Positions 13,459-37,230 of a stretch of DNA of 64,000 nucleotides are shown in pieces. Origin of the DNA: Nostoc sp. T09. Its GTDB lineage: Bacteria > Cyanobacteriota > Cyanobacteriia > Cyanobacteriales > Nostocaceae. The notes under the pieces were generated by a model that worked only from the letters and a program-made list of their open reading frames with translations, was not told the DNA's origin and did not search any database. Numbering within the stretch: the stretch's first letter is position 1; the number at the start of each line of letters is the position of its first letter. Location of the stretch: the NCBI RefSeq assembly GCF_002154695.1, contig NZ_MTAV01000014.1, positions 75,880 through 139,879 of the forward strand, read 5' to 3'. Both the position numbers and the translations under genes were made by a program.

Positions 13459-13462
13459 AAGG

Positions 13463-13545
13463 CGGAAGATGGAGGAATCGAACCCCTAGGTATTACCCTA
13501 CCCCGGTTTTCAAGACCGGTTGCCGACCATTCAGCGGCATCTTCC
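13463..13545 (-). tRNA. tRNA-Ser(TGA)
   Basis: Acceptor GGAAGAT/ATCTTCC, anticodon loop CTTGAAA (TGA, reads UCA), long variable arm as expected for Ser, T loop TTCGATT. CCA is not encoded. Confidence 0.88.
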
Positions 13546-13552
13546 ATTCAGG

Positions 13553-13628
13553 GGTGTCTGAGGAGGCTTGAACTCCCTAATGACTGGTTCCACAAACCAG
13601 CGCCGCGACCACTTTGGCTTCAGACACC
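13553..13628 (-). tRNA. tRNA-His(GTG)
   Basis: Anticodon loop TTGTGGA gives GTG. The encoded extra G at -1 opposite C73 is the histidine identity pair. Acceptor GTGTCTG/CAGACAC; T loop TTCAAGC. Confidence 0.88.
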
Positions 13629-13633
13629 ACAGT

Positions 13634-13706
13634 GGAGCCAAGGGGATTTGAACCCCTAACCTTCCGCTTGCAAGGCGGATGCTCTAGCCAGTTGAGCTAT
13701 GGTCCC
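13634..13706 (-). tRNA. tRNA-Ala(TGC)
   Basis: Anticodon loop CTTGCAA gives TGC (reads GCA). Acceptor GGGACCA/TGGCTCC has one A-C mismatch. D and T arms are standard (GGGG/CCCC T stem, loop TTCAAAT). Confidence 0.85.
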
Positions 13707-13712
13707 ATTTGG

Positions 13713-13784
13713 CAGGAGTGGTAGGACTTGAACCTACATCGGTAGATTTAGAAGATCGATGCCCATCCATTAGGCGACACTCCC
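13713..13784 (-). tRNA. tRNA-Arg(TCT)
   Basis: Anticodon loop CTTCTAA gives TCT (reads AGA). The anticodon stem has one mismatch. Acceptor GGGAGTG/CACTCCT; G73 followed by an encoded CCA. Confidence 0.83.
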
Positions 13785-13793
13785 ATAAATTGG

Positions 13794-13892
13794 TAGCCCT
13801 GACAGGAATTGTAGACGCGGAGCGGCTTCCCGAAGGGTACCTGCGACTTCCTCTTTGTAAGAGAGGCACTCTCCCCACTGAGTTACAGGGCT
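13794..13892 (-). tRNA. tRNA-Val(TAC) with 26-nt insertion in the T loop
   Basis: Acceptor AGCCCTG/CAGGGCT is perfect, D stem ACTC/GAGT, anticodon loop CTTACAA (TAC), T stem GCAGG/CCTGT. Between the T-stem strands lie 33 nt instead of 7, carrying a palindromic repeat (ACCCTTCGGGAAGCCGCT ... GCGTCTACAA). A73 and CCA are encoded. The rest of the tRNA is intact. Nearly the same insertion occurs in tRNA-Thr at 14068. Confidence 0.8.
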
Positions 13893-13897
13893 ACGAG

Positions 13898-13969
13898 AGC
13901 GAGTGATGGGACTCGAACCCATGCGCTGAGTGTGGCGCACTCAGATGCTAGCCACTACATCACACCCGC
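13898..13969 (-). tRNA. tRNA-Gly(GCC), C33 variant
   Basis: Acceptor GCGGGTG/CACTCGC, D stem ATGT/GCAT, T arm ATGGG/CCCAT with TTCGAGT. The anticodon loop GCGCCAC places GCC at 34-36 but has C rather than the near-universal T at position 33. Confidence 0.75.
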
Positions 13970-13992
13970 ATTGAAGAACCTATACGGTTCAG

Positions 13993-14063
13993 AGCGATCG
14001 ACGAGACTCGAACTCGTACCGTGAGTTTGGAAGACTCTGATGCTGCCTTTACACCACGATCGC
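13993..14063 (-). tRNA. tRNA-Gly(TCC)
   Basis: Anticodon loop CTTCCAA gives TCC. The acceptor stem GCGATCG/CGATCGC is built from HIP1-like sequence on both strands. T loop TTCGAGT. One mismatch at the base of the anticodon stem. Confidence 0.83.
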
Positions 14064-14067
14064 ATTA

Positions 14068-14167
14068 AGCTGGTAACAGGAATTGTAGACGCGAAGCGGC
14101 TTCCCGAAGGGTACCTGCAACCTACTAATTACAAGTCAGTTGCTCTGCCAGATTGAGCTACACCAGC
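14068..14167 (-). tRNA. tRNA-Thr(TGT) with 26-nt insertion in the T loop
   Basis: Acceptor GCTGGTG/TACCAGC, anticodon loop CTTGTAA (TGT, reads ACA), T stem GCAGG/CCTGT. The T loop is 33 nt and carries the same palindromic repeat as tRNA-Val at 13794, differing by one base. No CCA encoded. Confidence 0.8.
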
Positions 14168-14170
14168 ATT

Positions 14171-14232
14171 TGTGGATCTGAGAGTAGAAATTGTAGTCGC
14201 TCTTTTGGGCGACTACCCGCTCCATCTCAGCC
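14171..14232. repeat. nested palindrome between tRNA genes
   Basis: An inner 8-bp stem GTAGTCGC/GCGACTAC sits inside an outer stem CTGAGA/TCTCAG. The inner hairpin begins after AATT, exactly as the insertions in tRNA-Val and tRNA-Thr do. It may be an insertion into a decayed tRNA gene. Confidence 0.6.
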
Positions 14233-14233
14233 A

Positions 14234-14308
14234 TACCCCTGACTGGATTTGAACCAGCATCCTCTTTATTTTAAATAAAGCGCCTCGTACCAATTGGGCT
14301 ACAGGGGC
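14234..14308 (-). tRNA. tRNA-Leu(TAA)-like with short variable loop
   Basis: Acceptor GCCCCTG/CAGGGGT, anticodon stem CTTTA/TAAAG, loop TTTAAAA (T33, anticodon TAA, reads UUA), T arm GCTGG/CCAGT. The variable region is only 5 nt, whereas bacterial tRNA-Leu normally has a long arm. Identity as Leu rests on the anticodon only. Confidence 0.7.
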
Positions 14309-14333
14309 AAAAATCAAAAAATATCAATCACAT

Positions 14334-15215
14334 CTAAAGCTTGGAATGTTGTTTTTTCGCCCAATAACCTCTAGGCGGTTTTTCAATACCGTAAGCTTTA
14401 CACCATTTTTCCACCGCCTTATCGCTCACACCAAAATCTTTTGCTATTTGAGAAGTTGGTTTAGTCCAAATCATTTTTTTTAGTTCTTCTTTAGAAGGTC
14501 TTACAGTTCGTCTACATGCTAATTTAGAGCATTGCTGAGAACAGTAAGTATCTTGATCTGGGTTAGTTAGTAGCTTGCCACAGTACAAGCAAGTTCCGTG
14601 TGCAAATTGACAACTATAAATACCATTTCCATTGTTAATAAGTTGTCTTAGTACTAGTGGTATTTTGTGCCAACGATCGCGACTTTCTGCACTATCAAAC
14701 ACCAAAACGCTGATGACACGCTCGTTAGCCTCAGTCTCATTTATTGATTCTGACGATTTTAACTTTCGCTCTAAATCTTTGTGAGCCTTGCCTGCATGGT
14801 TATCCGTCAAAGCGTGACAGTTAGGACATAATAGCAGGAGATTTTCTAATCTATTGTCATGTCGATCGCCATTGATATGATGGAGTTCTAAAGGAATAGT
14901 GCCATCAAGCCAAGCGTTGGCGTAACAAGACTCGCACTTTGGAACTTTGAGACCATCCCTAATCAGCTTGAGTTTCAAACTATGGGTCTGAATGGTTGAC
15001 CCTTTGTAACAGTAATCACTTGCTGGCTTTAGCCTATTTGATTTGCGTCCTTTTCCACCTTGATTTCCTTTATAGACAATGTTCAATTTAGCTAGATAAA
15101 AGTCTAAAGTAAGAGGTTTGCAATTTAATTGACGACAAATAAAAGCTTTAGAACGATGCTCGTCAATCCATTGCCTAATTTGTGCTTCTTTTTTTAGGAT
15201 GTCATTTCTTCTCAT
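14334..15215 (-). CDS. HNH endonuclease inside the tRNA array
   Basis: A 293-residue protein. The central HNH fold includes CESCY, the catalytic run LELHHINGDRHDNRLENL and CPNCHALT, so zinc-ribbon cysteines and the HHIN core are present (~residues 95-150). A second CxxC-type zinc pair (CLYCGKL, CSQQC) follows, then a C-terminal helix-turn-helix (SQIAKDFGVSDKAVEKWCKAYGI). This architecture fits phage/homing-type HNH nucleases that recognise DNA through the HTH. It lies on the same strand between tRNA-Lys and tRNA-Leu(TAA) with its own ATG. HNH genes inside long tRNA arrays of Nostocales are known; a homing origin is inferred. Confidence 0.85.
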   Translation of the reverse strand: MRRNDILKKEAQIRQWIDEHRSKAFICRQLNCKPLTLDFYLAKLNIVYKGNQGGKGRKSNRLKPASDYCYKGSTIQTHSLKLKLIRDGLKVPKCESCYANAWLDGTIPLELHHINGDRHDNRLENLLLLCPNCHALTDNHAGKAHKDLERKLKSSESINETEANERVISVLVFDSAESRDRWHKIPLVLRQLINNGNGIYSCQFAHGTCLYCGKLLTNPDQDTYCSQQCSKLACRRTVRPSKEELKKMIWTKPTSQIAKDFGVSDKAVEKWCKAYGIEKPPRGYWAKKQHSKL

Positions 15216-15312
15216 ACCTCCGTATCATATCATACGTTACTTTATTTATTCTTAATACGTCTACCTTGAAATTTATGGCAGCTACATAATTTTCCTCATT
15301 TTAGTAAATTTA

Positions 15313-15385
15313 TGGGGTATACAGGAGTCGAACCTGTCTGAGTCGGATTAAAAATCCGATGCACTTGCCGCTATGCCAATACCCC
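15313..15385 (-). tRNA. tRNA-Lys(TTT)
   Basis: Acceptor GGGGTAT/ATACCCC, D stem GCAT/GTGC, anticodon loop TTTTTAA (TTT), T loop TTCGACT. First tRNA on the promoter side of the HNH gene. Confidence 0.87.
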
Positions 15386-15431
15386 ATACACAAGGCCGTT
15401 ATTTACCCGCTCTGGCAACGACCCAATTTGG

Positions 15432-15506
15432 TACTCCCGACAGGAATCGAACCTGCAAAAATTCCGTCCCTCAAACGGAAGCGTTTACCAATTTCGCCAC
15501 GGGAGT
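15432..15506 (-). tRNA. tRNA-Leu(GAG) lacking a long variable arm
   Basis: Acceptor ACTCCCG/CGGGAGT, a D arm resembling Leu tRNAs (GGCGAAATTGGTAAACGC), anticodon loop TTGAGGG (GAG), T loop TTCGATT, A73 and encoded CCA. The variable region is ATTTTT, about 6 nt. Confidence 0.78.
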
Positions 15507-15511
15507 ATCAG

Positions 15512-15585
15512 TACCCCTGACAGGAGTCGAACCTGCAAAACACTCGGTCTAAACGAGCGACGGTTTCCAATTACGTCACAGGGGC
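15512..15585 (-). tRNA. tRNA-Leu(TAG) lacking a long variable arm
   Basis: Acceptor GCCCCTG/CAGGGGT after a 5-bp T stem GCAGG/CCTGT. Anticodon stem GCTCG/CGAGT, loop TTTAGAC (TAG, reads CUA). The variable region is GTTTT only. Confidence 0.75.
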
Positions 15586-15591
15586 AAATGG

Positions 15592-15665
15592 TCGGGATGG
15601 TAGGATTTGAACCTACGACTCCTTGTCCCCAAAACAAGGCTTCTAGACCACTGAATTACATCCCG
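15592..15665 (-). tRNA. tRNA-Pro(TGG)
   Basis: Acceptor CGGGATG/CATCCCG, anticodon loop TTTGGGG (TGG, reads CCA), T stem GTAGG/CCTAC with TTCAAAT; A73 and CCA encoded. Confidence 0.88.
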
Positions 15666-15673
15666 ATATCTGG

Positions 15674-15747
15674 TACTCCTGACAGGATTTGAAAGAGCAA
15701 CACATCGCTTCTGGCGCGATCGCCTCTTCCAATTGGGCTACAGGAGC
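15674..15747 (-). pseudogene. tRNA-Leu(CAG)-like, probably non-functional
   Basis: Acceptor GCTCCTG/CAGGAGT and anticodon stem ATCGC/GCGAT are intact; the loop GCCAGAA gives CAG with C33. The T stem is broken (GCTCT against CCTGT), although the loop TTCAAAT remains. The variable region is short and A73-CCA is encoded. Likely a decaying tRNA. Confidence 0.65.
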
Positions 15748-15756
15748 ATAATTTGG

Positions 15757-15829
15757 CTGCCCTGCCAGGGTTTGAACCTGGAGTCTCCTCGTTCAAAGCG
15801 AGGGATGTTGCCAGTTACACTACAGGGCA
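15757..15829 (-). tRNA. tRNA-Gln(TTG)
   Basis: Acceptor TGCCCTG/CAGGGCA, anticodon loop CTTTGAA (TTG), T stem CCAGG/CCTGG, G73 and CCA encoded. Confidence 0.88.
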
Positions 15830-15837
15830 ATAATTGG

Positions 15838-15911
15838 CTGCCGAGGTTGGGGTCGAACCAACATCTCCGTGATTCAGAGTCACAGCGACTTTCCAAGTCG
15901 TCCACTCGGCA
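15838..15911 (-). tRNA. tRNA-Gln(CTG)
   Basis: Acceptor TGCCGAG/CTCGGCA, anticodon loop CTCTGAA (CTG, reads CAG), T loop TTCGACC, G73 and CCA encoded. A dedicated Gln(CTG) tRNA is unusual for a cyanobacterium, where TTG usually suffices. Confidence 0.82.
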
Positions 15912-15916
15912 ATGAA

Positions 15917-15991
<75 letters not shown>

Positions 15992-16000
15992 ATGTGCCAG

Positions 16001-16074
16001 TCCCCCAGATCCGGATTGAACGGATGACCTCCTGTTCTTCAGACAGGCGCTACTACCAACTGAGCTACCAGGGG
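16001..16074 (-). tRNA. tRNA-Phe(GAA)
   Basis: Acceptor CCCCTGG/CTGGGGG with two G-U pairs, anticodon loop CTGAAGA (GAA), T stem ATCCG/CGGAT, A73; CCA not encoded. Confidence 0.84.
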
Positions 16075-16080
16075 ATAAGG

Positions 16081-16154
16081 CGAGAACGGAGGGACTTGAA
16101 CCCCCACTCTTCAGGTTCGTAATCTGAGATGTTATCCAGTTACACCACGTTCTC
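16081..16154 (-). tRNA. tRNA-Arg(ACG)
   Basis: Acceptor GAGAACG/CGTTCTC, anticodon loop TTACGAA (ACG), T loop TTCAAGT, G73. One mismatch closes the anticodon stem. Confidence 0.83.
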
Positions 16155-16160
16155 ATAAGG

Positions 16161-16245
16161 CGGAGAGAGAGGGAGTTGAACCCACAGTGGACTTGCATCC
16201 ACGACTGTTTAGCAAACAGCTTGCCCTGCCAATAACAATCTCTCC
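16161..16245 (-). tRNA. tRNA-Ser(GCT)
   Basis: Acceptor GGAGAGA/TCTCTCC, anticodon loop TTGCTAA (GCT, reads AGC), long variable arm GTGGATGCAAGTCCAC; class II as expected. Confidence 0.86.
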
Positions 16246-16249
16246 ATGA

Positions 16250-16330
16250 TGGGTCGGGCTGGAATTGAACCAGCAACGCAAACGCGGCGGTTTTACAGAC
16301 CGTTGCCCACACCAGTAGGCGAGCCGACCC
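16250..16330 (-). tRNA. tRNA-Tyr(GTA)
   Basis: Acceptor GGGTCGG/CCGACCC, anticodon loop CTGTAAA (GTA), long variable arm CGCGTTTGCG, T stem GCTGG/CCAGC; class II as expected for bacterial Tyr. Confidence 0.86.
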
Positions 16331-16423
16331 ATATATATTTGAGTAATTACTTGAGATTTCTGGGTGAAATAAAGGAATGGAGAGACCAGTCTTCCTGCTC
16401 TCTGCCATCCCAACTCAAGTCAG

Positions 16424-16497
16424 CAGTGCCGACGGGGATTGAACCCGCAATCTCCTGCTTGAAAGACAGGTGGCTTTACCAATTTGCCTACGGCACC
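16424..16497 (-). tRNA. tRNA-Glu(TTC)
   Basis: Acceptor GGTGCCG/CGGCACT, anticodon loop CTTTCAA (TTC), T stem GCGGG/CCCGT, G73. It is followed on the tRNA-Tyr side by a ~93-nt spacer without obvious features. Confidence 0.84.
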
Positions 16498-16557
16498 AAG
16501 CTGAAATTTCTACCACATACAAGTTTGAGAAGCTGTTTTTTCAGCCCCCTGGTTTGG

Positions 16558-16627
16558 TGGAGGCTGTAGGAGTCGAACCTACTCTGATTGGGAAAATCAG
16601 ATGACCAGTTTGTAAGCTTCTTATGTT
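16558..16627 (-). pseudogene. tRNA-Gly(TCC)-like pseudogene lacking its 5' acceptor strand
   Basis: The 3' half is normal: anticodon stem CTGAT/ATCAG with loop TTTCCCA (TCC), T arm GTAGG/CCTAC with TTCGACT, then AGCCTCC-A-CCA. No complementary GGAGGCT occurs on the 5' side, and the D arm is unrecognisable apart from an AACTGGTCA loop. The 5' end is approximate. Confidence 0.65.
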
Positions 16628-16643
16628 GGGGCACGCGATAGAA

Positions 16644-16714
16644 CGCACAGACAAGGATTTGAACCCTGACCAAAGGTTTTGGAGACCCTGGTGCTGCCGT
16701 TACACCATCTGTGC
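16644..16714 (-). tRNA. tRNA-Trp(CCA)
   Basis: Acceptor GCACAGA/TCTGTGC, anticodon loop CTCCAAA (CCA), T loop TTCAAAT, G73. Confidence 0.85.
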
Positions 16715-16719
16715 ATTGG

Positions 16720-16791
16720 TCGCAGCGGTGGGAGTTGAACCCACATATCCTCGGTTATGAGCCGAGTACCCTACCGTTAGGTTACACTGCA
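16720..16791 (-). tRNA. tRNA-Met(CAT)
   Basis: Acceptor TGCAGTG/CGCTGCG, anticodon stem CTCGG/CCGAG, loop CTCATAA (CAT), T stem GTGGG/CCCAC, A73 and CCA encoded. A lysidine-modified Ile(CAT) role cannot be excluded from sequence alone. Confidence 0.82.
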
Positions 16792-16799
16792 ACGTTTGG

Positions 16800-16871
16800 A
16801 GTCCGAGGTGGGAATTGAACCCACGATGATTGATTTTGCAGACCAACGCCTTTCCACTTGGCTACTCGGAC
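16800..16871 (-). tRNA. tRNA-Cys(GCA)
   Basis: Acceptor GTCCGAG/CTCGGAC, anticodon loop CTGCAAA (GCA), T stem GTGGG/CCCAC, T73 and encoded CCA. Confidence 0.86.
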
Positions 16872-16879
16872 ATTTTTGG

Positions 16880-16953
16880 AAGCCTCGACGGGAGTTGCAC
16901 CCGCTTCTCTCTGACTGAGAATCAGAGCGACTTTTCTATTCGTCCACAAGGCT
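16880..16953 (-). tRNA. tRNA-Glu(CTC)
   Basis: Acceptor AGCCTTG/CGAGGCT, anticodon stem TCTGA/TCAGA, loop TTCTCAG (CTC), T loop TGCAACT (T55 to G change), T73 and encoded CCA. A separate Glu(CTC) gene is unusual. Confidence 0.78.
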
Positions 16954-16956
16954 ACA

Positions 16957-17032
16957 CGGGGATGATGGGATTTGAACCCACGTTCTTTCGCTCGACAGGC
17001 GACTGCTTTAAACCAGACTAAGCTACACCCCC
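16957..17032 (-). tRNA. tRNA-Asp(GTC), first gene of the array
   Basis: Acceptor GGGGGTG/CATCCCC, D stem GCTT/AAGC, anticodon loop CTGTCGA (GTC), T stem GTGGG/CCCAT, G73. It is the promoter-proximal tRNA of the array. Confidence 0.85.
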
Positions 17033-17107
17033 ACGTTGGGTGGCAATTATTCAGTTTTCATGGTTCAGAGGTGTTAGCGCTGTGCCTTTTGCAGAGGCTC
17101 TTTTGCT

Positions 17108-17236: not shown

Positions 17237-17773
17237 TTACTCATTCTCAGTTAGGCGTTGTGCGTTCCAGAACTGTTCGGCAAATGCAACCGCTGGGTGG
17301 ATTGGCGCTTTGGGTTTGGTTTTGAGTACCATTCCTGCTTCATGTGGAAGGCGATCGCTCTTGGTTGAGTTGCACTTTTCACAAGCGGTTACAACGTTGT
17401 CCCAGGTATGCTGTCCACCTTTGGAACGAGGAATTACGTGATCGAGGGTGAGACGTTTGGTGCTACCGCAGTATTGGCAGGTATGGTTATCACGCTTGAG
17501 TACTTCACGTCGGTTTACAGGTGGTACTTTCCAATGACGTTCGGGATTGCCAACAGTTAGACGAATGTGTTCGGGAACTTGTAGTACGATGCTGGGTGAA
17601 CGAACTTCCCAAAGCCTTGTGCTGCTGAACTCCAACGACTCTGCTTGACCTGTAACTAATAGAACAACAGCGCGTTTAATGTTGACGCGTGCTAGTGGTA
17701 GGTAGTTCTTAGAGAAGACTACCACCGAATTTTGTAATATCTGTGGTTCCTGAGCTTGTGGTTGAGCTTGCAT
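17237..17773 (-). CDS. HNH endonuclease-fold protein, conserved cyanobacterial type
   Basis: A 178-residue protein. A ~75-residue N-terminal part (SKNYLPLARVNIKRAVVLLVTGQAE) typical of this HNH subfamily is followed by the HNH core: RREVLKRDNHTCQYCG, LTLDHVIPRSKGG, TWDNVVTACEKCNSTK. CxxC pairs, the DH catalytic pair and the late Asn/His are present. It starts at an ATG just downstream of a terminator and lies directly upstream of the tRNA-array promoter on the same strand. A general DNA-metabolism role is likely; the exact role is unknown. Confidence 0.88.
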   Translation of the reverse strand: MQAQPQAQEPQILQNSVVVFSKNYLPLARVNIKRAVVLLVTGQAESLEFSSTRLWEVRSPSIVLQVPEHIRLTVGNPERHWKVPPVNRREVLKRDNHTCQYCGSTKRLTLDHVIPRSKGGQHTWDNVVTACEKCNSTKSDRLPHEAGMVLKTKPKAPIHPAVAFAEQFWNAQRLTENE

Positions 17774-17796: not shown

Positions 17797-17832
17797 ACAA
17801 CCCCCGCCTCTGATTACCAGGAGCGGGGGTTA
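17797..17832 (-). terminator. Rho-independent terminator
   Basis: The stem ACCCCCGC/GCGGGGGT with a 15-nt loop is followed on the minus strand by TTGTTTTTTT. It ends the transcript that starts near 18100 and insulates the HNH gene at 17773. Confidence 0.8.
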
Positions 17833-18134: not shown

Positions 18135-18258
18135 CTTTTCAATGGTGCTTTAGATAAAGCCTCCCATAGCATTTGGGCGATCGCTCATTGCCAACGTCTT
18201 TCCATAGAAGACGAAGAAATTGTTGTCATTGAGGCGATCGCATCTCCCAACATCCAAA

Positions 18259-19491
18259 TCAAACAAGCTTGATATGACTACCAATAAGCTCTTTCTCAAG
18301 CTGTACAAGTGCAATTTCTTCTTGACCAGGAACACCGAAACGGCGAAGATTAACACTGCTGTTAGCTGCCTCACGTTCGCCAACAACGGCGATAAAGGGA
18401 ACTTTGCGTGCTGAGAGTTCGCGAATTTTGTTAGAGATCGTGCGATCGCTTTTGTGCAGTTCCACTCTCATACCGATAGCTCTCAATCTTTGTACTACAA
18501 CCTCTGCCCAATCTACAGATTTTTCCGAAATCGAGGCTACCGCAACCTGTACAGGCGCAAGCCACAAAGGTAAAGCTCCTCCTTGGTTCTCAAGCAGAAT
18601 ACCAATCCAGCGCTCAATAGAACCTAAAACTGCCTGATGTAGAATCACTGGCTGCTCAAAATCACCACTGCTGCTAGCAAAGGAAAGGTCAAAAATCTCT
18701 GGGAGATTAAAATCTATTTGGATCGTGCCACATTGCCAAGCTCGCCCAAGTCGGTCTTCTAGGCTCACCTCAATCTTAGGGCCATAAAATGCCCCTTCAC
18801 CTGGTGACAGTTCGTAGGCATAGCCTAAGGCATTGCAGGATTCTATAAGTAGAGCTTCTGCTTTATCCCATTGCGCATCGCTACCTAAACGCTTTTCTGG
18901 ACGGAGAGCAATTTTTAAATGAAAATTCTCATAACCAAATGCTTGATAAACCTCACTTACCATCCTCAAAAAGTTGCGAATCTCATTATGAATGTCAGCT
19001 TCCTGGCAAAATATATGAGCATCATCTTGCACAAACTGACGTAAACGCATACAACCAGATAGCGTTCCTGAAGGTTCATAACGATGTACCATACCAAACT
19101 CCATCATGCGGATTGGCAGATCGCGGTAACTCCGTAAATGTGATTTGTATATGGCAATGTGAGCCGGACAAGACATAGGCTTTAGAGCATAATCGGCGCT
19201 GACTTGATTTAAATCGGCATCCTCTGTTGCTACATCTTTATCTAAGCTACCGACAACAAAGATATTTTCACGGAACTTTTCCCAATGGCCTGACTTCTCC
19301 CAAAGAACGCGACTCAACATTAGGGGCGAACGTACTTCTTCAAATCCGTAAACTTCGTAAACTTGTCGCATGAAGTCTTCAATTACCCGAAACATCCGCA
19401 AACCCAGAGGATGCCAAAAAACCATACCTGGGCTGTGTTCTTCAAAATGGAACAAGTCCATTACTTTTGCAAGTTCTCGATGGTCGTACAT
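18259..19491 (-). CDS. thrS: threonyl-tRNA synthetase without N-terminal editing domain
   Basis: Charges tRNA-Thr. At 410 residues it is far shorter than the ~600-640 of standard ThrRS, because the TGS and N2 editing domains are absent. The class II catalytic core is intact: MSCPAH (zinc ligand Cys108), motif 2 MEFGMVHRYEPSG, QDDAHIF (His159), LHQAVLGSIERWIGILLE. The C-terminal anticodon-binding domain follows (LAPVQVAVASISEKS ... VNLRRFG). The ATG at 19491 follows AGGAGAATAATT; a longer upstream frame runs through repeat DNA. Anabaena is known to carry an extra editing-less ThrRS (T2) beside the full-length one, and this looks like it. The leader has two threonine attenuators. Confidence 0.92.
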   Translation of the reverse strand: MYDHRELAKVMDLFHFEEHSPGMVFWHPLGLRMFRVIEDFMRQVYEVYGFEEVRSPLMLSRVLWEKSGHWEKFRENIFVVGSLDKDVATEDADLNQVSADYALKPMSCPAHIAIYKSHLRSYRDLPIRMMEFGMVHRYEPSGTLSGCMRLRQFVQDDAHIFCQEADIHNEIRNFLRMVSEVYQAFGYENFHLKIALRPEKRLGSDAQWDKAEALLIESCNALGYAYELSPGEGAFYGPKIEVSLEDRLGRAWQCGTIQIDFNLPEIFDLSFASSSGDFEQPVILHQAVLGSIERWIGILLENQGGALPLWLAPVQVAVASISEKSVDWAEVVVQRLRAIGMRVELHKSDRTISNKIRELSARKVPFIAVVGEREAANSSVNLRRFGVPGQEEIALVQLEKELIGSHIKLV

Positions 19492-19544
19492 AATTATTCT
19501 CCTGTTGATTAATTTGCTTGTAATTGCATAAATGCCAATTCCTG

Positions 19545-19638
19545 ATACCACTTTGAAAAGTGATTGCAACAGATGGATTCACACAGCCTGGACATAAAAG
19601 GCGATTCCCAATCCAAAATCTAAAATTCAAAGTTGTAT
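19545..19638. mobile_element. MITE-like element, copy 2, in the thrS leader
   Basis: Ends ATACCACTTTGAA and TTCAAAGTTGTAT form a 13-bp inverted repeat with one mismatch. The interior matches the element at 10235-10321. It sits between the second attenuator and the thrS start, so it is part of the mRNA 5' region. Confidence 0.65.
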
Positions 19639-19658
19639 GAGGTGAGCAGCCAACAATG

Positions 19659-19692
19659 AAAAACCCCTCTAAGAGTTACCTAGAGGGGTTTT
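19659..19692 (-). terminator. attenuator 2: terminator with competing antiterminator
   Basis: The minus-strand stem AAAACCCCTCTA/TAGAGGGGTTTT, with loop GGTAACTCT, ends in TTTTTC, a classic intrinsic terminator about 170 nt before the thrS start. Its 5' arm CCCTCTAGG (19687-19679) can instead pair with CCTGGAGGG (19736-19728), the Pro-Gly-Gly codons at the end of leader peptide 2. All nine positions pair, with one G-U. Confidence 0.85.
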
Positions 19693-19721
19693 GTCTCCGT
19701 ATCTGTACACGACAAATTACG

Positions 19722-19790
19722 TCACCTCCCTCCAGGCGTGATAGTAGTGGTTGTAGTGGTAGTTATGACCAAGCTGCTGATATAGCTCAT
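19722..19790 (-). CDS. threonine-rich leader peptide 2 of thrS
   Basis: A 22-codon ORF with an AGGAAA ribosome site 10 nt upstream. After MSYISSLVI come seven consecutive Thr codons, then ITPGGR and a TGA. A run of threonine codons ahead of a terminator and a threonyl-tRNA synthetase gene matches the logic of the E. coli thr leader. A ribosome stalled on the Thr run would leave CCTGGAGGG free for antitermination. A ribosome reaching the stop would mask it. Confidence 0.85.
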   Translation of the reverse strand: MSYISSLVITTTTTTTITPGGR

Positions 19791-19845
19791 GTACTTAATA
19801 TTTCCTAGTTGATAATTTCCAAATCATGTCTATATACACTAAAAT

Positions 19846-19870
19846 CCCCTCAAGGTATGACCTTGAGGGG
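19846..19870 (-). terminator. attenuator 1: terminator with competing antiterminator
   Basis: A perfect 11-bp minus-strand stem CCCCTCAAGGT/ACCTTGAGGGG with a 3-nt loop is followed by ATTTTAG, a weaker U-tract than attenuator 2. The segment ACCCCTCAAGGT can alternatively pair with ACCAAGGGGGGT (19920-19909) in leader peptide 1, giving ten pairs around a 2-nt internal loop. Confidence 0.75.
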
Positions 19871-19903
19871 TGAGTTGATTGCTTCACTGTTTACGCCAGC
19901 AGT

Positions 19904-19951
19904 TTACGACCCCCCTTGGTTTGTAGTTCGGGTAGTGCTAGTAGTGGTCAT
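19904..19951 (-). CDS. threonine-rich leader peptide 1 of thrS
   Basis: A 15-residue ORF, MTTTSTTRTTNQGGS, of which seven are Thr, ending in TAA. It is the first translated element after the inferred promoter. The Asn-Gln-Gly-Gly codons supply the antiterminator strand. No strong Shine-Dalgarno is visible, so translation of this ORF is less certain than that of leader 2. Confidence 0.75.
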   Translation of the reverse strand: MTTTSTTRTTNQGGS

Positions 19952-20021
19952 AAAACTAAACTGGCTGGCAATTGCTAGTGACACGTTTTTAATTAAGGAA
20001 AAGCTTTGTATTTATCAACCA

Positions 20022-20049
20022 ATTTTAGCAAAGATGAATTGCTTGTCAA
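20022..20049 (-). promoter_or_regulatory. promoter of the thrS attenuator leader
   Basis: On the minus strand TTGACA (20049-20044) and TAAAAT (20027-20022) are 16 nt apart. Transcription would begin near 20014, about 63 nt before leader peptide 1. I searched the region for a Zur-type TGATAATNATTATCA box and saw none. Confidence 0.6.
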
Positions 20050-20246
20050 CCTAAGTTCTAAAAGCTGATTTCAAATACATTTAACCCTTTGCGCCCTCTG
20101 CTTTCTACTTAATACGCCTCTAGAATGATGAATGCTCAAAAATACTAGGCTGAACTAGTAGTCAAACATAAGGGAATTAGTTGCATTCAATTTGCAGCTA
20201 TTCCCACAGAAATGTTAGATGTGTTCACTAAATAAAGAAGTGTGTG

Positions 20247-36741: not shown

Positions 36742-36769
36742 AAAAAAGGTTTGGCTGGTTACCAGACCT
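36742..36769 (-). terminator. minus-strand intrinsic terminator in a gene-free region
   Basis: AGGTCTGG/CCAAACCT with a 7-nt loop is followed by TTTTTTC on the minus strand. No minus-strand protein gene precedes it within 2 kb, so an untranslated transcript must end here if it is used. Confidence 0.6.
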
Positions 36770-36994
36770 CTATATAAATCCAGTGCATAACAACATCCCG
36801 GATCAATTTACTCTTTATTTTTTAGTACAGCATCTTCCTATAGGATGTGTTCAAATCATTTGAAAGCTGATAGTACGTAAATCTATAGCAACGTCTATTT
36901 GAATTTGTAAATTTCCTAACAGAGGCAGGTAACATAATATCAAACGTTAGCAATTAAATATTTAGATAAAAGTAATCCAAAACAGCCTGAAAGC

Positions 36995-37065
36995 AAAATA
37001 AAAGACGGGTATTATCCCGCCGAGATAGCTTGAAAGTGGTAATACACCTTGGACTCTGGAAAAAT
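36995..37065 (-). ncRNA. candidate small RNA, unit 2 of a duplicated pair
   Basis: The minus strand reads CCAAGGTGTATTACCACTT ... then a GGCGGG/CCCGTC hairpin and TTTTATTTT. Upstream, TTGACA (18-nt spacer) and TGTAAT could form a promoter. It aligns with unit 1 at 37231. Predicted length is ~70 nt. Confidence 0.5.
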
Positions 37066-37230
37066 TACACAAATAAATTAAATAGGTTGTCAAGATTATC
37101 AAGGATACGAACTAAAAAACGGTTATTTGTGCCGTATTTGATGTTGTAATCCGGTTAATCTTTTCAATTTTTATGAACATAACATAGCTAAATTTTGACA
37201 AGTTGCCAAAATGCCGAATAGTCAAACAGC

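Follow-up and report, generated by a model that had tools for sequence, protein, structure and literature searches.

What controls a threonyl-tRNA synthetase (ThrRS) gene that lies behind two short, threonine-rich open reading frames, each followed by a terminator hairpin, and what is such a gene for? The question is raised by a locus in Nostoc sp. T09, within a 64,000-nt stretch of DNA from contig NZ_MTAV01000014.1 that was analyzed as a whole and is called the window here. Judged from the DNA sequence, the leader of this gene very probably contains two ribosome-mediated transcription attenuators in series, placed before an auxiliary ThrRS without an editing domain and opening when Thr-tRNA falls. 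We use our own label T3 for this short kind of ThrRS (410 aa in the window), and each leader reading frame with its terminator is referred to as a gate.

The window order on the minus strand is promoter, ORF 1, terminator 1, ORF 2, terminator 2 and thrS (Table 1). A preliminary description of this DNA had claimed a promoter with a 16-nt spacer, a first leader peptide with 7 Thr in 15 codons, a second ORF with a Thr run, and two terminators; all of these parts were located. It had also claimed that the Gly-Gly codons of each ORF are complementary to the 5′ arm of the following terminator, and this pairing was recovered: in gate 2, CCTGGAGGG and CCCTCTAGG form 9 of 9 pairs, one of them G-U, while in gate 1, ACCAAGGGGGGT and ACCCCTCAAGGT form 10 of 12. 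The Shine-Dalgarno matches 5′ of both window ORFs are weak, which counts against the attenuator reading. No T-box is present among the 23 matches of Rfam covariance models above the gathering threshold in the window. The interval 19535-19642, in the spacer between terminator 2 and the gene, recurs at many places in each of the 8 genomes of the genus and seems to be a dispersed short repeat inserted at this point; most relatives have a shorter spacer here, and the entry of the repeat would account for the difference.

Table 1. Features of the T3 leader and unit in the window (positions counted from the first letter of the window).
Feature	Position	Strand	Remarks
Promoter TTGACA-16 nt-TAAAAT	20022..20049	-	11/12 matches
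Leader peptide 1, MTTTSTTRTTNQGGS (putative gate 1 sensor)	19904..19951	-	15 codons, 7 Thr
ORF 1 end, ACCAAGGGGGGT (predicted antiterminator 5′ strand, gate 1)	19909..19920	-	
Terminator 1 hairpin, CCCCTCAAGGTCATACCTTGAGGGG, then ATTTT	19846..19870	-	hairpin covariation in relatives
Leader peptide 2, MSYISSLVITTTTTTTITPGGR (putative gate 2 sensor)	19722..19790	-	22 codons, 8 Thr
ORF 2 end, CCTGGAGGG (predicted antiterminator 5′ strand, gate 2)	19728..19736	-	
Terminator 2 hairpin, followed by T5	19660..19692	-	hairpin covariation in relatives
thrS (T3)	18259..19491	-	410 aa; catalytic and anticodon-binding domains only
Complete unit	18143..20109	.	1967 nt; absent en bloc in sister genome G307

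The T3 protein of the window has just two domains, a class II catalytic core and one for anticodon binding (Pfam PF00587 and PF03129), and its score of 466.6 bits against the TIGR00418 cut-off of 383.65 places it among bacterial ThrRS. The N-terminal TGS and editing domains, which are a membership criterion of TIGR00418, are absent. The protein aligns to residues 243-609 of E. coli ThrRS, and the editing positions H73, H77, C182 and H186 have no counterpart in it, in agreement with the earlier claim of an editing-less enzyme. The zinc ligands C334, H385 and H511 are present in all 35 T3 proteins compared. The assignment of the gene as thrS also stood, with the addition that it is an auxiliary second thrS and not the housekeeping one: the window genome encodes another ThrRS, in a frame of 611 aa, and all 35 T3 genomes also encode a longer ThrRS, whose frame is at least 604 aa in 34 of them and 562 aa in G242. 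In nine T3 genomes a longer ThrRS was found at E ≤ 1e-100, and these nine we take, by E-value alone, to be of the T2 kind, the auxiliary ThrRS of Anabaena. Replacement of T2 by T3 was considered and discarded, because both kinds seem to be present together in some genomes.

T3 is scattered among the cyanobacteria sampled. It was found in 8 of the 291 genomes of the order sample (65-100% identity, E ≤ 1e-183; next match after this set at 7e-109), and 19 of the 217 genomes of the family sample have a match at E ≤ 1e-120, one of them broken. The class sample gave matches in 19 of 388 genomes, of which 11 are T3 once 8 proteins of 643-652 aa with 47-49% identity are set aside; the phylum sample gave 2 of 292 at E ≤ 1e-150, both already contained in other samples. 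These samples overlap, and pooled they yield 35 T3 genomes. Two further copies come from Acaryochloris marina MBIC10699, where they reside on pREC1 and pREC2, each a plasmid typed as conjugative; among the 692 records matched in the plasmid search, an identity of at least 60% was reached only in the two Acaryochloris records. All 25 phage records that matched T3 fell below 60% identity, and no T3 occurs among the 80 loci listed from a contig scan, nearly all named as proteobacteria, which were used as outgroup and control.

Residue and tree counts refer to 35 T3 proteins, from 33 genomes and the two plasmids, with the broken copies L130 (G346) and L138 (G641) omitted; that this number equals the number of T3 genomes is a coincidence. 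In a tree of 93 proteins T3 forms one clade (100/100), which is separate from the sampled longer cyanobacterial ThrRS and adjoins mostly alphaproteobacterial ThrRS. The exact position of T3 is uncertain, because the outgroup consists of the best hits listed and both the branch of the housekeeping protein from the window genome and the T3 stem are long. The intact T3 proteins of the compared leaders are 62-80% identical to that of the window. In the same tree, the longer ThrRS of small-genome cyanobacteria (L140-L147) cluster with proteobacterial ThrRS and not with the other sampled cyanobacterial ones, perhaps reflecting an old gene replacement.

The comparison of leaders covers 40 sequences: those of the 35 genomes (the leader of G448 sits on a separate contig, L185), the 2 plasmids, and the T3 fragments in G461, G444 and G343, which were found by pattern. 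A fixed test was applied in which a gate is called when the last 16 codons include at least 5 Thr and a terminator lies 8-60 nt past the stop. By this test, two gates are present in 31 of the 40 T3 leaders and a single gate in the other 9 (L115, L118, L119, L120, L133, L136, L137, L138 and L184), so that at least one gate is present in all 40. Several of the single-gate leaders have a near-miss second gate, judged by eye, with 4 Thr (L133, L136, L138) or a larger loop (L184); gate 2 is missing in L120 and degenerate in L137, which counts against the reading. L128 passes the scan, yet an insertion parts its gate-2 ORF from its real terminator, and the gate-1 ORF of L122 ends one codon ahead of the Gly codons. 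With looser criteria, two gates are found in 34 of 39 leaders (L185 left out). By plain count, 35 of 39 leaders have TTGACA 60-190 nt 5′ of the stop of gate 1, and a strict promoter regular expression matches only 11 of 39 because it demands a T at the last −10 position.

Outside T3 leaders, the fixed test returned 12 rows at 11 distinct places in 2.54 Mb of strand length, which represents every gathered locus on both strands, some overlapping. None was returned at the 31 loci of longer cyanobacterial thrS, nor on the gene strand at 20 loci of housekeeping thrS drawn from as many of the 35 T3 genomes. Lack of conservation in orthologous leaders had been set beforehand as grounds for refuting the preliminary description; Thr runs, terminators and pairing are all kept. 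A pattern blind to the amino acid (GGAGGG, a stop-like element, CCCTCY and GGRGG) was run on 211 family genomes and matched in 26. It found the leader in 14 of 19 T3 genomes, missing G000 (that of the window itself), G338, G344, G440 and G441, and it also found the T3 fragments in G343, G444 and G461. None of the 11 non-T3 places inspected has an amino-acid run, the commonest residue occurring at most 5 times (Pro, L176), and three of them have no stop codon there; additional matches in G341 look, by eye, like copies of one repeat. In the family, and within the sensitivity of the pattern, the gate thus goes with T3.

Conservation at the ends of the ORFs is of two kinds. Over the ten codons preceding Gly-Gly, the difference rates at codon positions 1, 2 and 3 are 0.28, 0.40 and 0.51 in gate 1 (n = 38 leaders) and 0.17, 0.14 and 0.47 in gate 2 (n = 35), and the Thr runs of T3 leaders use all of ACC, ACT, ACA and ACG. 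These rates indicate that the Thr runs are selected as codons read by a ribosome, most clearly at gate 2. At each gate Gly-Gly occurs in 31 of the 34 leaders, the remaining ones reading otherwise, and in these 62 cases GGA is used in 61 and GGG in 61. All 31 gate-2 ORFs with Gly-Gly read GGA GGG, and one exception is gate 1 of the window, which reads GGG GGG. In the terminator that follows, the CCCTCC arm is the complement of GGAGGG, and since Gly codons could vary freely yet hardly do, the comparison indicates that GGA GGG is selected as RNA. The free third base in Thr and the near-fixed GGA GGG therefore point to constraint as codons in the former and as RNA in the latter. The last Thr and GG are 2-3 codons apart in 34 of 38 leaders at gate 1 and 1, 3 or 4 codons apart at gate 2, a distance near the 12 nt that a ribosome is described as covering downstream (PMC4833913).

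Structure was compared in alignments of the 34 two-gate leaders. The terminators covary, with two-sided changes in 5 of 10 pairs at each gate (kinship ignored), and their proportion of paired cells, 80.0% at gate 1 and 93.1% at gate 2, lies above all 500 shuffles when kinship is likewise ignored; for the gate-1 terminator, the count of pairs with two-sided changes was reached by 40 of 500 shuffles and is thus unexceptional. No antiterminator covariation was found at either gate in these alignments, with 78% of cells paired at each. The antiterminator core consists of six near-invariant pairs, and because it hardly varies, its support comes from conserved complementarity and not from covariation. 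When ORF ends and terminator arms were swapped between leaders, the native pairs of gate 1 were beaten in 0 of 5000 permutations, and those of gate 2 were no better than swapped ones (1153 of 5000), kinship being ignored in both cases. The alignment of leaders that had been proposed as a check thus bore out the conserved Thr runs and the covarying terminators, and failed to bear out covariation of the antiterminators.

Equilibrium folding was rejected as proof of a switch, as the terminator wins: in the window it beats the antiterminator at every ribosome position, and among the 34 leaders the antiterminator wins in only 10 and 7 at the two gates, respectively. With the terminator favored at equilibrium, the switch must act during transcription, as computed for E. 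coli thrL too. The E. coli-type attenuator logic claimed earlier is supported by the comparison, with two corrections: the antiterminator is backed by conserved complementarity and not by covariation, and the switch has to be a co-transcriptional one. In the intermediate that precedes synthesis of the 3′ arm, upstream pairing of the 5′ arm reaches P ≥ 0.5 in all 34 leaders at both gates when the ribosome is on the first Thr; with the ribosome on the stop, it does so in 1 of 34 at gate 1 and 0 of 34 at gate 2. In the case of the window, this probability is 1.00 on the first Thr versus 0.13 on the stop at gate 1, and 0.86 versus 0.32 at gate 2; for E. coli thrL, where the terminator also wins at equilibrium, it is 0.999 versus 0.004. 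A baseline of 28 ordinary gene-end terminators has a median P of 0.36, with 13 reaching 0.5 and 4 reaching 0.9. Since 13 of 28 ordinary terminators pair upstream as well, the intermediate computation is by itself weak evidence.

From these features we infer ribosome stalling, termination and read-through as follows. With ample Thr-tRNA, the ribosome would reach the stop codon and cover GGAGGG, leaving the CCCTCC arm to pair downstream and form the terminator, at each gate. With scarce Thr-tRNA, the ribosome would stall within the Thr run and GGAGGG would be left free to capture the CCCTCC arm once it is transcribed, allowing RNA polymerase to pass. As thrS needs both gates open, leak should be low. 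The trigger would be the loss of charged tRNA-Thr for whatever reason, be it a lack of threonine or a housekeeping ThrRS that is poisoned or fails.

The closest known design is that of E. coli thrL, where a leader peptide rich in Thr likewise ends in codons that repeat the terminator 3′ arm and pair with the 5′ arm; the folding behavior computed for thrL is also like that of T3 leaders. E. coli thrL differs in having one gate, a biosynthetic operon and Ile codons too, whereas T3 leaders place two serial gates before a spare synthetase in cyanobacteria. The E. coli synthetase operon pheST, with its annotated leader peptide PheM, resembles the T3 leader design; it is controlled by attenuation through a single attenuator and encodes a housekeeping enzyme. 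An auxiliary, antibiotic-resistant TrpRS of Streptomyces is said to have been described by Vecchione and Sello in 2010 as controlled by ribosome-mediated attenuation with one attenuator; like T3 it would be an auxiliary synthetase under this type of control, and it differs in its amino acid, Trp, and in belonging to actinobacteria. T-box RNA binds tRNA directly. The B. subtilis thrZ gene is likewise a second ThrRS gene behind serial antitermination units, with a mechanism different from that of T3: in bacilli, 2 or 3 adjacent T-boxes are reported upstream of thrZ, and T-boxes are reported in 0 of 13 cyanobacteria (PMC2494555). Anabaena T2 (thrS2) is, as described, another auxiliary cyanobacterial ThrRS with poor editing, which keeps a degenerate editing domain and is Zur-controlled (PMC4787780), whereas T3 has no editing domain at all.

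The unit is also movable. In G307, a genome of the same genus, 18 nt stand in place of the 1967 nt of the window, and the flanks of this empty site are 94% and 90% identical to those of the window; with the whole block missing, promoter, both gates and thrS must have been gained or lost together. Presence or absence of the block is a direct observation, as are the parts themselves, their conservation, the codon constraint on the Thr runs and the RNA constraint on GGAGGG. Seven of the eight genus members are without T3, and besides thrS no neighboring gene is common to more than 4 of 20 loci (two of the 20 being one place). Broken T3 copies occur in G346, G444, G461 and G641, consistent with an intermittent benefit. 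At L130, L138, L182 and L183, T3 is broken by stops, deletion or truncation, and at least one leader gate is intact in each.

In the window, T3 lies just upstream of 24 consecutive tRNA genes on the minus strand (13461-17033, ARAGORN), none of them for Thr; further tRNA matches from Rfam lie at 13794-13892 and 14068-14167. The array is accompanied by HNH genes at 17237-17773 and 14334-15215 and resembles the trn operon of an Anabaena plasmid, induced by translation antibiotics; similar tRNA arrays, several with HNH genes, occur on Nostoc plasmids. A strong terminator-like hairpin with a T run, identified by eye, lies at 17798-17831, directly 5′ of the HNH gene start and the tRNA array, and could be an attenuator of the array. 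Further along, Rfam matches to cyano_het_sRNA and NsiR8, RNAs related to heterocysts and nitrogen stress, lie at 36744-36799 and 37004-37174.

Seeing T3 as a spare, movable gene alters the probable purpose of the switch. In E. coli ThrRS, position 463 is reported to decide sensitivity to obafluorin and borrelidin, with Ser or Ala conferring resistance, and Ser stands at this position in the self-resistance enzyme ObaO (PMC11252418; PMC9880928). ObaO is a second ThrRS of the obafluorin producer Pseudomonas fluorescens and shares Ser463 with 13 of the 35 T3 proteins, the other 22 having Gly. It differs from T3 in that it is not known to lie behind an attenuator, and the studied construct, residues 241-637, implies that ObaO is longer at the N-terminus. 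The window protein has Gly463 and so lacks the Ser or Ala that marks an ObaO-like, inhibitor-resistant ThrRS. The T3 proteins with Ser463 (L084-L087, L113-L116, L121 and L125-L128) belong to three separate clades, and well-supported branches of the T3 tree force 3 changes: three gains, or one gain and two losses. Ser463 occurs in none of the 31 longer ThrRS of cyanobacteria, most of which are other than the housekeeping kind, in 0 of 80 other ThrRS among the matches listed (one has Ala), and in 0 of 20 housekeeping ThrRS from T3 genomes. Changes at position 489 are reported to give borrelidin resistance in E. coli (PMC4389257), and T3 has Phe there in 7 and Met in 1 of 35 proteins. As a sign of resistance this position was dropped, since Met489 is common in normal ThrRS (23 of 80 among the matches listed) and L489M is described as leaving obafluorin binding unweakened (PMC11252418).

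These residues suggest that T3 is a spare enzyme sometimes selected by ThrRS inhibitors, of which the window copy is a representative without the resistance residue. Tentatively, and short of calling it probable, we propose that T3 is a mobile, self-contained resistance cassette, released by two thrL-like gates when Thr-tRNA drops. A ThrRS inhibitor, or failure of the housekeeping ThrRS, would lower Thr-tRNA, ribosomes would stall and T3 would be released; the released spare ThrRS would carry, in several lineages, the residue associated with obafluorin and borrelidin resistance. Titles and abstract openings in open-access PubMed Central, covered in part, contain no amino-acid leader attenuator in cyanobacteria. 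As part of the cassette proposal, and with the same reserve, the T3 leader would be without precedent in the open-access literature covered, both as a leader-peptide attenuator of cyanobacteria and as a tandem pair.

Three other explanations were weighed. That the gates sense a general slowing or failure of translation, as the neighboring trn tRNA array may do, and not Thr-tRNA specifically, has some appeal: with no ribosome on the ORFs GGAGGG would be free, so blocked initiation should open the gates too, T3 adjoins the tRNA array in the window, and the Anabaena trn operon is reported to respond to ribosome antibiotics (PMC10272220). We consider it unlikely, because general sensing needs no particular residue, whereas Thr is kept as the run residue with free third positions at both gates, and because the neighbors of T3 differ at other loci. 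Drift, in which low-complexity ACC/ACT repeats happen to lie beside ordinary terminators without any regulation, can appeal to the upstream complementarity common among such terminators (13 of 28); it is contradicted by the conservation in 40 leaders, the Thr codon constraint, the near-invariant GGA GGG and the absence of gates at longer thrS loci, and deserves almost no credence.

The remaining alternative, marginally less likely than general translation sensing, is that T3 serves as a zinc-limitation backup, a low-zinc, Zur-controlled ThrRS like Anabaena T2 for which the leader would be secondary. On pREC1 (L148), T3 lies near cysS, folE, a DUF1636 gene and cobW, kinds of genes linked to zinc limitation, and on pREC2 (L149) near a Fur-family regulator gene; the neighbors on both plasmids hint at zinc limitation there. 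Moreover, thrS2 of Anabaena is described as Zur-controlled and as covering for T1 at low zinc (PMC4787780). However, Zur-like boxes in 39 T3 promoters are about as good as those in 39 shuffled ones, except for 2 at 3 mismatches versus none, and the window promoter has none at up to 4 mismatches. The three zinc ligands are retained in 35 of 35 T3 proteins, no neighbor other than thrS recurs at more than 4 of 20 T3 loci, and nine T3 genomes have a longer ThrRS taken, by E-value alone, as the T2 kind.

If two Thr-tRNA-responsive attenuators in series do control T3, leader-peptide attenuation would be added to the regulatory repertoire of cyanobacteria, and the two serial gates would offer a natural test of how doubling a switch alters its leak and sharpness. 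An editing-less ThrRS made on demand also raises the question of whether mistranslation with Ser is a price of survival. A spare synthetase that can move and that carries a resistance residue in some lineages predicts a ThrRS-hitting compound in these habitats, and if T3 is indeed a resistance cassette, it would be a sign that cyanobacteria meet natural ThrRS inhibitors.
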